Shown: positions 45,796 through 51,294 of the stretch, one piece after another | Layout: the number at the start of each line of letters is the position of its first letter | Position numbering within the stretch: position 1 is the stretch's first letter | Assembly: GCF_020164595.1 (NCBI RefSeq) | Contig: NZ_JAIQZE010000010.1 | Location: 62,001-126,000 of the forward strand | DNA from: Psychroflexus longus | Lineage (GTDB): Bacteria > Bacteroidota > Bacteroidia > Flavobacteriales > Flavobacteriaceae | Length of the DNA stretch: 64,000 nucleotides | Reading direction: 5' to 3' | Translations under genes and position numbers: made by a program | The notes under the pieces: generated by a model | Databases searched by the model: none | Seen by the model: only the letters and a program-made list of their open reading frames with translations | What the model was told of the DNA's origin: nothing

Positions 45796-47046
45796 TTACA
45801 AATCGAAAGCTTCTTTCAGTTGATCCACATAATCCAATTTTTCCCATGTGAATAGTTCGACTTCGTGTCTAACTTCTCCTGAGTAATCTGAACGGTAGAT
45901 TTTAGTTTCTAAGCGAGGTTCTTTTCCCATGTGGCCATAAGCGGCAGTTTCTCTGTAGATAGGGTTTCTTAATTTTAAGCGTTCCTCGATCATTCCTGGG
46001 CGCATATCAAAAATCTGTCTGATTTTTCTGGCGATGTCTCCATCGCTCATGTCGATGTGTTTATTGGTGGTGTTCACCAAAATGGACGTAGGTTCGCTTA
46101 CCCCAATAGCATAGGACACCTGGACCAAAACTTCATCGGCAATACCAGCAGCTACCATGTTTTTGGCGACGTGTCTGGCTGCATAAGCGGCAGATCTATC
46201 TACTTTACTAGGATCTTTTCCAGAAAAAGCACCACCGCCATGAGCACCTTTACCACCATAGGTGTCTACTATGATTTTTCTACCCGTAAGTCCAGCATCA
46301 CCGTGAGGTCCACCAATGACAAATTTCCCTGTGGGGTTGATGTGGTAAGTGATATTTTCATCAAACAAAGCTTGAGTCTGCTCATCAAACAAAGCTTTTA
46401 CTCTTGGAATCAAGATGGATTTGATGTCATCGGCGATTTTTTGAAGCATGGTCTCATCTTTATCAAAATCGTCATGCTGAGTGGAGACTACAATTGTATC
46501 TATGCGCTGGGGTACATTATCGTCGGAGTACTCAATAGTGACTTGAGCCTTTGCATCTGGTCGTAAATAAGTTATGTCGTCGTTTTCTCTGCGAAGCTTG
46601 GCTAGCTCAATAAGGAGTTTATGTGAAATGTCCAAAGCCAGGGGCATGTAGTTTTTGGTTTCGTTGGTCGCATAACCAAACATCATTCCCTGGTCTCCAG
46701 CGCCTTGTTCTTCTTTGGAAGCTTTGTCCACACCCTGGTAAATATCCTGAGATTGCTCGTGAATCAAAGAAATTACACCACAGGAATCTCCAGAAAATTG
46801 ATAAGCTCCTTTAGTATAACCTATATCGTTTATAACGTCTCTGGCAATTTGCTGAACGTCTAAGTAAGTATTGCTTCTTACTTCACCTGCCAGAACGACC
46901 TGTCCGGTAGTGACTAAGGTTTCACAAGCCACTTTAGAAGTTTCGTCAAATGCTAAAAAAGAATCGAGTAAAGCATCACTGATTTGGTCAGCGATTTTAT
47001 CGGGGTGTCCTTCAGAAACACTTTCTGAAGTAAATAAATAGGACAT
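45796..47046 (-). CDS. metK: S-adenosylmethionine synthetase
   Basis: A 416-residue enzyme making S-adenosylmethionine from methionine and ATP. Family signatures [13 protein letters not shown] near residue 14, [11 protein letters not shown] near residue 118 and [16 protein letters not shown] in the second half are all present. It is monocistronic and preceded by a SAM-sensing leader (47109-47157), giving end-product control. Confidence 0.96.
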
Positions 47047-47062
47047 AAAAATAAGTTTAAAG

Positions 47063-47157
47063 TTATAGTCGCAAGGAAGGATTTGAAAAGACTATAATCT
47101 CAAAGAGCACTGCTTTAGCATTTTAAAAAGAGGTTGCAATCAGTCAAATCCTTCCTC
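47063..47157 (-). promoter_or_regulatory. SAM-II-class riboswitch and expression platform of metK
   Basis: Read on the minus strand, 47157-47109 has the SAM-II pseudoknot layout: GAGG (P1), GGATTTG, ACTG (P2), TTGCA, CCTC (P1'), a T-A rich stretch with TTTAAAA, TGCTAAAG and CAGT (P2'). P1 (GAGG/CCTC), P2 (ACTG/CAGT) and the inner GCA/TGC pair all close, and the conserved GATTTG, TTGCA and GCTAAA elements are in order. Downstream, 47086-47074 is an exact 13-base complement of 47156-47144, so an alternative helix would destroy the aptamer. A second hairpin, TTATAGTC/GACTATAA (47097-47063), can also form before the ATG at 47046. Confidence 0.75.
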
Positions 47158-47257
47158 AGTGCAAACATAATAAATTTGAGTCATTCTAAATTGTATTAAG
47201 TTATTTTTAGCAGATTTATACTTCAGATTCCTTTGCTTTGTATAAAAATACAGAATC

Positions 47258-47680
47258 ATGAAAATCAGTCTCCATAAGAAACACAACAGCGATGTGCATT
47301 TTGAAGCAGAAAATGCGTTAGGCCATAAAATTGAGCTTTACAATTCTACAGCACCCGACCCCAAGGCCCCGAGTCCTATGGAATTGATATTAATGGGAAC
47401 AGCAGGTTGTAGCAGCATCGATATTGTACATATTCTTAAAAAGCAAAATCTGGAGATTAAAAATTTAGATGTAGAAGTGGAGGGCTTACGTCAGGATACC
47501 GATCCTAAGGTCTTTCACACGATCAAATTACTCGTAAAATTAGAGGGTGATATTCCGGCAAACAAGGCGAAGCGAGCGGCGCAATTGTCTTTCGAAAAGT
47601 ACTGCTCAGTATCTAAAATGTTGGACGCCACCGTGGATATTCAGTACCAGGTGCAGTTGAATGGGGAGTTGTTGGAGTAG
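47258..47680 (+). CDS. OsmC/Ohr family protein
   Basis: A 140-residue protein of the OsmC family, whose members reduce organic hydroperoxides using cysteines. The pattern S-P-M-E-L-I-L-M-G-T-A-G-C-S-S-I-D-I-V (about 41-59, reactive cysteine near 53) and a second cysteine in K-Y-C-S-V-S near residue 114 match. It belongs to the YhfA-like branch. It is divergent from metK across about 210 bp that contain the riboswitch. No operon partners. Confidence 0.88.
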   Translation: MKISLHKKHNSDVHFEAENALGHKIELYNSTAPDPKAPSPMELILMGTAGCSSIDIVHILKKQNLEIKNLDVEVEGLRQDTDPKVFHTIKLLVKLEGDIPANKAKRAAQLSFEKYCSVSKMLDATVDIQYQVQLNGELLE

Positions 47681-47789: not shown

Positions 47790-48989
47790 TTATCGAATAT
47801 ATAACAAATAGGGATTGATCTTTTTCTTATAAGACTTTAGATCAGATTCCCAGTTTTTTCTAATTTCCTGGGCGGTTGTTCCCTGTTGAATTTGCTCCTG
47901 CAAGCTTGCATTTCCAGCCAGTTTATTGAAAAAATCGTTGAAAAATAATGCTTGGTCCTGGGTGTGACGATAGGCCTGAAGTAACCAGTCTAAATTTAAA
48001 TGGTCGAGATCGCTCTGATTTTGAAGGTTCCTGCCGTAGCAAAGCTCGTTCTCATGTTTAGGATATTTAGCCCCTTCTGAGGAAGTAGGTGTGAATTCAA
48101 AATCAAAAATGGAAGCGTCTAAAAATGGCGATCCAAACACCTGAAACTGCATCGATGTTCCTCGTCCGGCATTCACATTGGTGCCTTCAAAAAAGCACAG
48201 ACTTGGATATAAATTGATAGACTTCGCATTGGGCAGGTTAGGCGAGGGTTTAATAGGTAAGTCATAGCTCAATTGCAAGGAGTAGTCCCTCATGCTAATG
48301 ATCACTAAATCACACTGTATTCCATTGGCTAGCCAGCCTTCACCATTTATCATTTTTGCATATTCAGCAATGGTTAATCCATGAACCACAGGAACTGGAT
48401 GCATTCCTACAAAACTTTTAAACTCATCCTCCAAAACAGGTCCGTCGATATAATGACCGTTGGGATTTGGTCGATCCAAGACCAAGAGTGGAATATTTTG
48501 CTCAGCACAAGCTTCCATAATGTAATGCAGACTTGAAATGTAAGTGTAGAAACGAGCACCTACATCTTGTATATCAAACACCATGATGTCTATACCTTCC
48601 AAATCTTTAAGACTTGGTTTTTTTTGGGATCCGTAAAGGGAAATAATAGGAATTCCCGTTTTGGCATCTAGTCCATCTTTGATGAGTTCACCTGCATCAG
48701 CAGTGCCGCGGAAACCGTGTTCGGGTGCAAATACTTTTTGGACCTCGATATCTCGACTCAAAAGTGAATCTACCAAATGAACGTAATCCGTTTCAGAAGT
48801 AAAGATCACCGAGGTTTGGTTACCTACAATTCCAACATTTTTATTCTCAAGCAAACTGAGATAGGTTTCTGTTCGATTGGCAGCAACACCAAGGCTGCTA
48901 AATGAATTAGTTTCATCATCTTGCGCTGTACAAGAAATACATGCCAAAAGAATAAAATAAACTGTATTTTTGAACCACTTTAAAATCAT
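47790..48989 (-). CDS. namZ: DUF1343 protein, NamZ-like exo-N-acetylmuramidase
   Basis: A 399-residue exported protein (N-terminal hydrophobic segment with L-L-A-C or C-I-S-C as possible lipobox). The DUF1343 core is clear: V-G-I-V-G-N-Q-T-S, F-A-P-E-H-G-F-R-G near residue 90, V-F-D-I-Q-D-V-G-A-R-F-Y-T-Y and L-D-R-P-N-P-N-G. NamZ of Bacillus and Tannerella releases MurNAc from peptidoglycan ends, so this enzyme may provide substrate for a MurQ route, although murQ lies 25 kb away. The specific activity is inferred. It starts eight bases from the divergent permease gene. Confidence 0.82.
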   Translation of the reverse strand: MILKWFKNTVYFILLACISCTAQDDETNSFSSLGVAANRTETYLSLLENKNVGIVGNQTSVIFTSETDYVHLVDSLLSRDIEVQKVFAPEHGFRGTADAGELIKDGLDAKTGIPIISLYGSQKKPSLKDLEGIDIMVFDIQDVGARFYTYISSLHYIMEACAEQNIPLLVLDRPNPNGHYIDGPVLEDEFKSFVGMHPVPVVHGLTIAEYAKMINGEGWLANGIQCDLVIISMRDYSLQLSYDLPIKPSPNLPNAKSINLYPSLCFFEGTNVNAGRGTSMQFQVFGSPFLDASIFDFEFTPTSSEGAKYPKHENELCYGRNLQNQSDLDHLNLDWLLQAYRHTQDQALFFNDFFNKLAGNASLQEQIQQGTTAQEIRKNWESDLKSYKKKINPYLLYIR

Positions 48990-48997
48990 AAGTCAAC

Positions 48998-50233
48998 TTG
49001 AATTTTGAATATTTTGTTTCTAAACGGCTAGTCACCAAAACCGATCATAAAAGTAACATATCGGCTCCGATAATTAAAATCGCGATCTCTGCGATAGCGA
49101 TTGGAATCATAATGATGTTTGTAGCGATTAGCACAGGTTTGGGTCTTCAAAATAAGATAAGAGAAAAGATTGCCGCCTTCAACGGGCACATTGTGATCAA
49201 CAACTTTTCCAACAACCAGTCGACGATCACCCAAAATCCCATAACCACCAAGCAGGATTTTTATCCAGAATTTACCGCGGTTCCAGAAATAGAACACATT
49301 CAAAAAGTAGCGACCAAATACGGCATCATCAGAACGGAGACCGATTTTGAAGGTATCGTGGTAAAAGGAGTAGGAGAGAACTACCGCTGGAAATACCTGA
49401 AGGAATATCTAACCAAAGGTCAACTTCCCATCTTTGATGAGGACATAAGCCGAGAGGCGTTGATCTCAAACTACCACGCCAATCGGTTGGGCTTTGATGT
49501 GGGGGATAAGCTCATTGTTTACTTTATAAGAGAAGATCAGGACCGTTTACCGAGATCGGTAGGATTGACGATTTCAGGAATTTTTGATTCTGGCTTTAAG
49601 GAATTTGATGAAACCTACATCATCACCGATTTGAGACAGATCCAGAGATTAAATAACTGGGAAAAAGACCAGATTGGTCAGTTTGAATTGTTTGTTGAAG
49701 ACTTTACAGAAATTCAGGACGTTGGTTATAAGGTCTACGAAGAAGTGGATTCGTTTTTGAATGCCAGCACCATTATTGAATTATACCCTTCTATTTTTGA
49801 ATGGCTCAAGATGTTTGATTTCAATATCATATTGATTATCGGAATAATGATTTTGGTAGCAGGTATTAATATGATTACGGCTTTACTGGTGTTGATTTTG
49901 GAACGTACGCAAATGATAGGCATCTTAAAATCCTTGGGGTCTTCAGATTGGTCCATTCGAAAAATATTTCTTTACAATGCGGGATTTTTGATTTTCAAAG
50001 GTTTGTTTTGGGGGAACCTCATCGGTATTTCACTTTTGCTCATACAGAAGTACCTCAAAGTCATTCCTTTAAATCCAGAAACTTATTATGTCTCTGAAGC
50101 CCCAATTTATTTAAGCTTAGACTATATATTTGTAATAAATATTGGTACACTTTTATTGTGTGTGTTGATGTTATTGGTTCCATCGGTTATCATTACTAAA
50201 ATTTCTCCAGTGAAAGCCATGAAGTTTGAATAA
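48998..50233 (+). CDS. LolC/LolE-type ABC transporter permease
   Basis: A 411-residue inner-membrane protein with one N-terminal helix (about 25-50), a large periplasmic MacB-like domain (about 55-260) and three C-terminal helices of the FtsX type (about 270-405) with R-T-Q-M-I-G-I-L-K-S-L-G-S-S near residue 302. This is the layout of lipoprotein-releasing permeases LolC/LolE. No ATPase gene is adjacent. The start is a TTG at 48998; its probable promoter lies inside the divergent gene. Released substrate is assumed to be lipoproteins by family. Confidence 0.86.
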   Translation: MNFEYFVSKRLVTKTDHKSNISAPIIKIAISAIAIGIIMMFVAISTGLGLQNKIREKIAAFNGHIVINNFSNNQSTITQNPITTKQDFYPEFTAVPEIEHIQKVATKYGIIRTETDFEGIVVKGVGENYRWKYLKEYLTKGQLPIFDEDISREALISNYHANRLGFDVGDKLIVYFIREDQDRLPRSVGLTISGIFDSGFKEFDETYIITDLRQIQRLNNWEKDQIGQFELFVEDFTEIQDVGYKVYEEVDSFLNASTIIELYPSIFEWLKMFDFNIILIIGIMILVAGINMITALLVLILERTQMIGILKSLGSSDWSIRKIFLYNAGFLIFKGLFWGNLIGISLLLIQKYLKVIPLNPETYYVSEAPIYLSLDYIFVINIGTLLLCVLMLLVPSVIITKISPVKAMKFE

Positions 50234-50313: not shown

Positions 50314-51294
50314 ATGGATTACGCTGAAAATATCATTGGAACTATTGGTAAAACACCAATGGTAAAAATGAATAAAATAGTTGAAGAGATAGACGCCTTA
50401 GTTCTGGCTAAGTACGAGACCTTCAACCCAGGAAATTCTGTCAAAGACCGGATGGCTTTGCAAATGATTGAAGATGCTGAGGCCTGCGGAGCGCTAAAAC
50501 CTGGAGGAACTATCATTGAAGGAACTTCTGGAAATACAGGTATGGGATTGGCTTTGGTTGCAATCGTGAAAGGCTACAAAGTGGTTTGTGTCTTGAGTGA
50601 TAAGCAAAGTAAAGAGAAAATGGATATTCTTAGAGCTGTAGGTTGTGAAGTACATGTTTGTCCAACCGATGTGGCTCCAGACGATCCAAGGTCTTACTAC
50701 TCTACGTCTGCCAGATTGGCTAAAGAAACTCCTAATTCCTGGTATGTGAATCAGTATGATAATCCATCCAACTGTAAAGCACATTTTAAAACGACGGGTC
50801 CTGAAATCTGGGAACAAACCGATGGTAAAATCACTCATTTTGTGGTAGGGGTAGGTACAGGTGGAACCATCTCTGGAGTGAGTAGCTATTTGAAAATGAA
50901 AAATCCCGATATTAAAGTTTGGGGAATCGATACCTACGGATCGGTTTTTAAAAAATACCATGAAACCAGAGAGTTTGATGAAGATGAAATCTATCCTTAT
51001 GTCACCGAAGGGATTGGTGAAGACATATTGCCACTAAATGTAAGATTTGATGGGATTGATGGTTTTACCAAGGTCACCGATAAAGATGCTGCAGTTTATA
51101 CTCAAAAACTAGCCAAAGAAGAGGGTATGTTTTTAGGAAACTCAGCCGGAGCAGCGGTGAAAGGCTTACTACAACTAAAAGAGCATTTTAAAAAAGACGA
51201 TGTGGTAGTCGTGCTGTTCCACGACCATGGCAGTCGCTATGTTGGAAAGATGTTTAATGACGATTGGATGCGGGAGATGGGATACATTGATTAA
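50314..51294 (+). CDS. cysteine synthase / cystathionine beta-synthase-like PLP enzyme
   Basis: A 326-residue fold-type II PLP enzyme. The cofactor lysine lies in N-P-G-N-S-V-K-D-R (Lys44 by count), followed by the substrate loop E-G-T-S-G-N-T-G-M-G-L and the phosphate loop G-V-G-T-G-G-T-I-S-G near residue 178. The segment V-T-E-G-I-G-E-D-I-L-P resembles cystathionine beta-synthase more than CysK, and there is no C-terminal CBS domain. It makes cysteine from an activated serine or cystathionine from serine and homocysteine; sequence alone does not decide. Single gene with its own promoter and terminator. Confidence 0.88.
   Translation: MDYAENIIGTIGKTPMVKMNKIVEEIDALVLAKYETFNPGNSVKDRMALQMIEDAEACGALKPGGTIIEGTSGNTGMGLALVAIVKGYKVVCVLSDKQSKEKMDILRAVGCEVHVCPTDVAPDDPRSYYSTSARLAKETPNSWYVNQYDNPSNCKAHFKTTGPEIWEQTDGKITHFVVGVGTGGTISGVSSYLKMKNPDIKVWGIDTYGSVFKKYHETREFDEDEIYPYVTEGIGEDILPLNVRFDGIDGFTKVTDKDAAVYTQKLAKEEGMFLGNSAGAAVKGLLQLKEHFKKDDVVVVLFHDHGSRYVGKMFNDDWMREMGYID

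Follow-up and report, generated by a model that had tools for sequence, protein, structure and literature searches.

The metK gene of Psychroflexus longus, which encodes S-adenosylmethionine (SAM) synthetase, is preceded in the window (the whole stretch of 64,000 nucleotides that was analysed) by a SAM-II aptamer and by a downstream strand that is perfectly complementary to part of that aptamer. The chances are judged about even that this leader is a SAM-OFF SAM-II riboswitch with a strand-exchange platform that needs neither a Shine-Dalgarno (SD) sequence nor an intrinsic terminator. Leaders of this kind have no excess of intrinsic terminators and belong to a phylum without SD sequences, and anti-aptamer pairing offers a testable route by which a riboswitch could act in them. 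The anti-aptamer strand, backed by sister-pair covariation, is a precise and mutable target, and Flavobacterium johnsoniae is an established model in the window's family.

The metK leader, its aptamer and its promoter

The metK leader and start codon occupy minus-strand positions 47157-47044 (Table 1). The initial annotation assigned SAM-II conserved elements to this leader and proposed a covariance search with the Rfam SAM-II models, which upheld the assignment. RF01726 (SAM-II, long loop) scores 61.7 bits where its gathering score is 44, and the match spans all model positions (E 1.9e-9 for the window). No other Rfam family reaches its gathering threshold in the window, and at E≤0.001 the match at metK is the sole RF01726 match in the genome. 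The core GGATTTGACTGATTGCAACC is present in the leader as had been described, and the conserved core letters GATTTGACTGATTGCAACC and the P1 strands GAGG/CCTC are both found in the cmscan alignment. The printed structure of the Rfam model holds no pseudoknot, and the P2 pairs given here were read by eye and are unscored. By its sequence, the leader carries a SAM-II aptamer that belongs to the long-loop family of Bacteroidota. The aptamer is placed before a SAM-related gene with Pfam S-AdoMet_synt domains, and it would be expected from its riboswitch class to bind SAM. A further Rfam match, to a snoRNA (E 0.57), fell under its gathering score and was set aside.

The aptamer class is already known. 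In the part of Weinberg et al. (2010, PMC2864571) that was covered, RF01726 shares with the window its aptamer sequence, P1, conserved 3' strand, Bacteroidota host and association with a SAM-related gene. The RF01726 model differs in that it stops after the aptamer (60 positions), without an anti-aptamer strand, and the window differs from the long-loop family in having a short loop (10 nt) from P1 to the 3' strand. True long loops, in which extra sequence between P1 and the 3' strand folds into at least one hairpin, are present in leaders L052, L071, L076, L077, L082, L083 and L101.

Upstream of P1, TATGTTTG is presumably the -7 element of the promoter, based on the Bacteroidota consensus TAnnTTTG. 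In 149 of the 158 leader clusters described below this motif lies no more than 40 nt before P1, compared to 4.75 expected from mononucleotide shuffles. The gap between the element and P1 is 4 nt in the window, and the transcript therefore probably begins at P1, with the first base of P1 or an adjoining base as the likely transcription start. Because a fixed offset was used to position P1 in the leaders, a few of its starts may be off by one base. A hairpin that extended into TTATGTTTG, obtained in the first fold of the window, was rejected because TTATGTTTG holds the likely promoter element, which would not be transcribed. The neighbours of metK encode an OsmC-like protein (47258-47680, plus strand) and a NamZ exo-beta-N-acetylmuramidase (47790-48989, minus strand), followed by an FtsX/MacB-type permease (48998-50233, plus strand) and a PALP enzyme (50314-51294, plus strand).

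Table 1. Features of the metK locus (positions in the window)
Feature	Position	Strand	Remarks
metK, S-adenosylmethionine synthetase, 416 aa	45796..47046	-	Pfam PF00438, PF02772, PF02773
Likely -7 promoter element TATGTTTG	47162..47169	-	TAnnTTTG upstream of P1
SAM-II aptamer, RF01726 (SAM-II, long loop)	47105..47163	-	61.7 bits, model positions 1-60 of 60
P1 5' strand GAGG	47154..47157	-	Pairs with CCTC 47133-47130; Rfam consensus structure
P1 3' strand CCTC	47130..47133	-	Rfam consensus structure
P2 5' strand CTGATTGC	47136..47143	-	CTG/CAG and GC/GC pairable with 47119-47110, by eye
P2 3' strand GCTAAAGCAG	47110..47119	-	Conserved in RF01726
Aptamer segment targeted by anti-aptamer strand, AGGAAGGATTTGA	47144..47156	-	13-nt perfect complement downstream
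Anti-aptamer strand TCAAATCCTTCCT	47074..47086	-	13 perfect pairs; complements recur in relatives
Alternative hairpin, 5' arm TTTGAGATTATAGTC	47090..47104	-	Folds with 47070-47056 when aptamer is left out
Alternative hairpin, 3' arm GACTATAACTTTAAA	47056..47070	-	-24 to -10 from AUG; same fold

Anti-aptamer strands in the window and its relatives

The targeted aptamer segment and the anti-aptamer strand, 58 nt downstream, form 13 perfect pairs, in agreement with the initial annotation. When the downstream segment was dinucleotide-shuffled 10,000 times, no match exceeded 10, a length reached 7 times, and the window leader has the longest perfect match among 225 unique leaders. As had been proposed, the downstream strand is thus an alternative pairing partner for P1 and the GGATTTGA element. 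The minimum-energy fold from P1 to the AUG is a long hairpin (-28.8 kcal/mol, z -5.09) that none of 200 shuffles equals in stability. The long competing hairpin had thus been anticipated, but a second hairpin had been missed. When folded alone, the downstream segment forms the 14-bp alternative hairpin of Table 1, which holds the anti-aptamer strand in its 19-nt loop and whose stability (-8.5 kcal/mol, z -3.10) is equalled by 2 of 200 shuffles.

RF01726 is nearly universal across the window's family, where a draw of 298 genomes gave matches at E≤0.001 in 291 (280 over the cut-off); the genus gave 24 of 27 (22 over the cut-off). In a class-wide draw it was present in 29 of 197 genomes, 7 of them from the window's family and 1 from the window's order. 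A total of 271 loci were examined, of which 32 were without an aptamer by the script's pattern and 2 were without a metK start, and the remaining 237 leaders (225 unique) come mostly from the window's family. The sampling took 100 family leaders, hand-picked among the best-scoring matches listed and thus under-sampling low-scoring aptamers, and 20 of the 22 earlier matches that lacked a locus. Leaders with at most 125 nt between aptamer and AUG and with no N (217) were grouped into 158 clusters, and phylogenetic groups were assigned by hand on the basis of kinship and record titles. The subsets used for folding and access were 208 leaders for the window-state comparison, 214 for the sister-pair test and 146 of 158 for the access test. 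One genome (G030) has two RF01726 copies (L002 and L031), neither of them followed by a metK start as called by the script; L002 has a TCAAATC strand, and the N-terminus of its gene presumably resembles that of an O-acetylhomoserine sulfhydrylase.

The anti-aptamer strand had been regarded as distinctive of this leader, but complements recur in relatives, in different registers and against targets that vary by leader (P1, the L1 element, P2 5' or P2 3'). Over the 225 unique leaders, the longest perfect match between the aptamer 5' part and the downstream sequence has a mean of 7.32, compared to 5.65 when shuffled, with p≤0.05 in 37%. An unbiased count of 6-mers between aptamer and AUG in the 158 clusters gave the same picture, as five of the seven most enriched are exact complements of the consensus aptamer: CAAATC (47 clusters, 6.25 expected), GCAATC (24, 2.7 expected), GTCAAA (31, 4.5 expected), CTTTAG (27, 5.5 expected), and TCAAAT (43, 12.3 expected). 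In the aptamer their counterparts are GATTTG, GATTGC, TTTGAC, and CTAAAG; the other two of the seven, CGTCAA and TCGTCA, overlap the same strand, and the top 7-mer is GTCAAAT (28 clusters, 1.4 expected). A coarse motif rule found no complement motif in 34 of the 158 clusters.

Folding of the 158 clusters points in the same direction. Whole leaders exceed in stability the versions whose downstream segment was shuffled (mean z -2.33). Of the 158 minimum-energy folds, 140 have 10 or more of the first 21 aptamer bases paired downstream, compared to 267 of 474 shuffled folds. By group, the longest match is 7.16 vs 5.58 shuffled in the window's family (109 clusters, mean fold z -2.68), 8.41 vs 5.73 in other named loci (17 clusters, z -3.34), and 6.71 vs 5.60 in Bacteroidales (17 clusters, z -1.95). 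In the other Flavobacteriales families (15 clusters) it equals the shuffles, at 5.60 vs 5.57, with a fold z of -1.97. Of 26 loci from the class-wide draw, 14 were readable (5 from the window's family and 9 from outside), and these 14 leaders gave a longest match of 5.9 vs 5.4 shuffled, with one at p<0.05. Therefore, a simple long match characterises mainly the window's family, while imperfect hairpins of greater length may be distributed more widely.

Covariation between the aptamer and the anti-aptamer strand

If the complement were a passive effect of base composition or shared ancestry, it would have no regulatory meaning. In favour of this reading, neighbouring clusters are related and, within the window's clade, column covariation is weak, indeed nearly absent. 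An alignment of 10 leaders (the window and 9 relatives of the same genus, chosen by eye for similar leaders) shows a double change in only 1 of the 14 pairs of the anti-helix, in which 82.5% of cells pair compared to 42-61% when slid, a value that letter shuffles reach in 113 of 500 trials. For the alternative hairpin the same alignment shows a double change in 0 of 14 pairs, 4 of which never vary, and 77.9% of cells pair compared to 27-43% when slid (reached by 387 of 500 letter shuffles). There is little column covariation in the 13-bp helix because its aptamer side hardly varies.

Support for the anti-aptamer strand comes instead from the wider swap and sister-pair tests. Native pairing has a mean of -16.6 kcal/mol, compared to -14.3 kcal/mol for swapped pairing (z -13). 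As a control for ancestry, 101 disjoint sister pairs were taken from 214 leaders with metK identity above 70% and different aptamers; the native combination was better in 70, worse in 22, and tied in 9 (p 5e-7). Two control regions gave null results in the same test, with 49/44/8 for the first 75 nt of metK and 51/45/5 for the upstream region. The initial annotation had proposed to look for covariation in the 13-bp helix among relatives. Covariation of aptamer and downstream segment is seen in sister pairs across the family, but hardly any in the columns of the clade. The opposite outcome named at that stage, with neither a SAM-II match nor covariation, is not what was found, since the match is present and the covariation is family-wide. 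The dinucleotide shuffles, the sister-pair swap test and the two null control regions all contradict a passive complement, which is considered very unlikely.

Proposed switch and its possible outputs

The downstream strand can pair with the aptamer and this potential is conserved; the two folds would then presumably exchange. When SAM is bound, the nascent 5' end would fold into the SAM-II pseudoknot, with binding expected from the class. Without SAM, the anti-aptamer strand would pair with the aptamer 5' strand to form a hairpin at the 5' end that stops about 27 nt short of the AUG, so that the region before the start codon would be open and metK translated. With SAM, the anti-aptamer strand would probably be released and, in the window's clade, the two arms of the alternative hairpin would close, the 3' arm covering the region before the AUG. 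Reduced 30S loading would then lower SAM synthetase when SAM is plentiful. This putative OFF hairpin is specific to the clade and generalises poorly.

To model the SAM-bound state, upstream pairs were forbidden and the pseudoknot was left unfolded. In the window, positions -24..-12 then shift from largely open to largely paired. Folds that include 60 nt of coding sequence show the AUG triplet mostly paired in either state (unpaired 0.25 and 0.29), and it is therefore not itself switched. According to the part of PMC6847099 that was covered, members of the phylum lack SD sequences, and so does F. johnsoniae, in which structure close to the start codon tunes translation; translational OFF control is therefore favoured for the window. 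A broader proposal, which is held tentatively and at somewhat less than an even chance, is that a fast-evolving anti-aptamer strand co-evolves across the family with the P1, L1, and P2 strands, and that SAM switches the openness of an unstructured landing zone before the AUG, not the hiding of an SD sequence.

Among relatives, access to the start region changes only a little. At -15..+15 it falls from 0.576 to 0.542 in 146 leaders once upstream pairing is forbidden, whereas with one shuffled segment each it rises from 0.511 to 0.531 (native vs shuffled p 2.5e-6). At 0..+20 there was no change beyond that of shuffles in the 146 leaders (p 0.60). Folded on its own, the downstream segment hardly exceeds shuffles in structure over the 158 clusters (mean z -0.40, p 0.02). 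The switch could also have the opposite sign, with the anti-helix blocking expression and SAM relieving the block: a structure within some 30 nt of the AUG could impede the loading of ribosomes, and some leaders have a released segment with almost no structure. However, a metK activated by SAM would amount to positive feedback, the anti-helix stops a median of 24 nt before the AUG (158 clusters), and -15..+15 is more accessible with native than with shuffled segments, which makes an ON switch highly improbable.

The minimum-energy fold pairs the aptamer 5' strand to the downstream segment in six of seven named Flavobacterium leaders (L128 is the exception), and L071, L076, L082, L083 and L101 pair via the P1, P2 5' and P2 3' strands at once. 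The released segment of the seven folds at only -0.3 to -3.2 kcal/mol, and a weak hairpin that reaches the AUG is seen in L083 alone. These leaders argue against translational OFF control as a general rule.

With the same aptamer and the same exchange, the output here could be Rho-dependent termination or mRNA decay, in which SAM would expose to Rho or an RNase a C/U-rich, G-poor strand that is hidden without SAM. Such exposure, for which riboswitch control of Rho in the covered part of PMC12121620 provides a likeness, would explain the sign without an OFF hairpin and would suit leaders with an unstructured released segment; it may fit the Flavobacterium leaders as well as translational OFF control does. 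Forbidding upstream pairing opens -40..-20 from 0.359 to 0.548, compared to 0.517 to 0.535 for shuffles, and in the 158 clusters the segment has C 0.198 vs G 0.112, compared to 0.127 vs 0.124 upstream. However, the C excess follows partly from complementarity to a purine-rich strand, and the C minus G value of the window leader, above 24 of 28 comparable 5' regions in the window (metK's included), is not exceptional. Composition thus supports Rho only weakly, and an output through Rho or decay is regarded as plausible though rather unlikely.

The proposed translational OFF switch can be compared to SAM-II platforms known from other bacteria. Sinorhizobium meliloti metA and metZ share with it the SAM-II aptamer and the OFF logic (here proposed); in the covered part of PMC9373788, the SD sequence of metA is sequestered in the pseudoknot and metZ has a predicted intrinsic terminator. 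In the window the aptamer 3' strand ends at position -64 from the start codon, away from a metA-type arrangement with the SD sequence in a pseudoknot near the start codon, and a metZ-type stem and U-tract before the gene is absent from the leader region (46900-47400). Intrinsic termination is the commonest predicted SAM-II platform in alpha- and beta-proteobacteria, as given in the covered parts of PMC2258182 and PMC9373788. Attenuation of this type is extremely improbable here, as terminator-like sites occur in 3 of 158 leader clusters against 2.2 expected from shuffles and number 0 in 46900-47400.

In P1 strand-exchange platforms, as treated in the covered part of PMC2258182, RNA without ligand likewise has part of its aptamer paired to the expression platform. 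That source has SAM-II acting via its distal pseudoknot, whereas here the P1, L1, and P2 strands are the targets, and the output, unlike that of P1 strand-exchange platforms in general, must work without an SD sequence. That aptamer and platform strands exchange is standard among riboswitches (PMC2258182, in the same part), and the present platform therefore counts as a variation on a known theme. No description of an expression platform or anti-aptamer strand for Bacteroidota SAM-II was found in the literature listings searched or in the passages covered of PMC2864571, PMC13273304, PMC1273637, PMC12121620, PMC7366714, PMC9373788, PMC6847099 and PMC2258182.

Two further patterns were observed in and around these leaders. 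The motif TGTAAAC, which is not complementary to the aptamer, lies just 3' of it in 12 of 158 clusters (0.8 expected), with L183, L211, L225 and L259 among the leaders that carry it; in L211 and L225 a local GACG/CGTC hairpin overlaps the anti-aptamer strand. Additionally, codons for SESVSE at the start of metK (47028-47011, minus strand) can form a hairpin, as they can in other metK genes. Of 108 distinct variants with TCN for both the first and the last serine, 51 have Watson-Crick partners at the third bases of these two codons, compared to 35.8 of 108 expected from the margins, a figure without ancestry correction.
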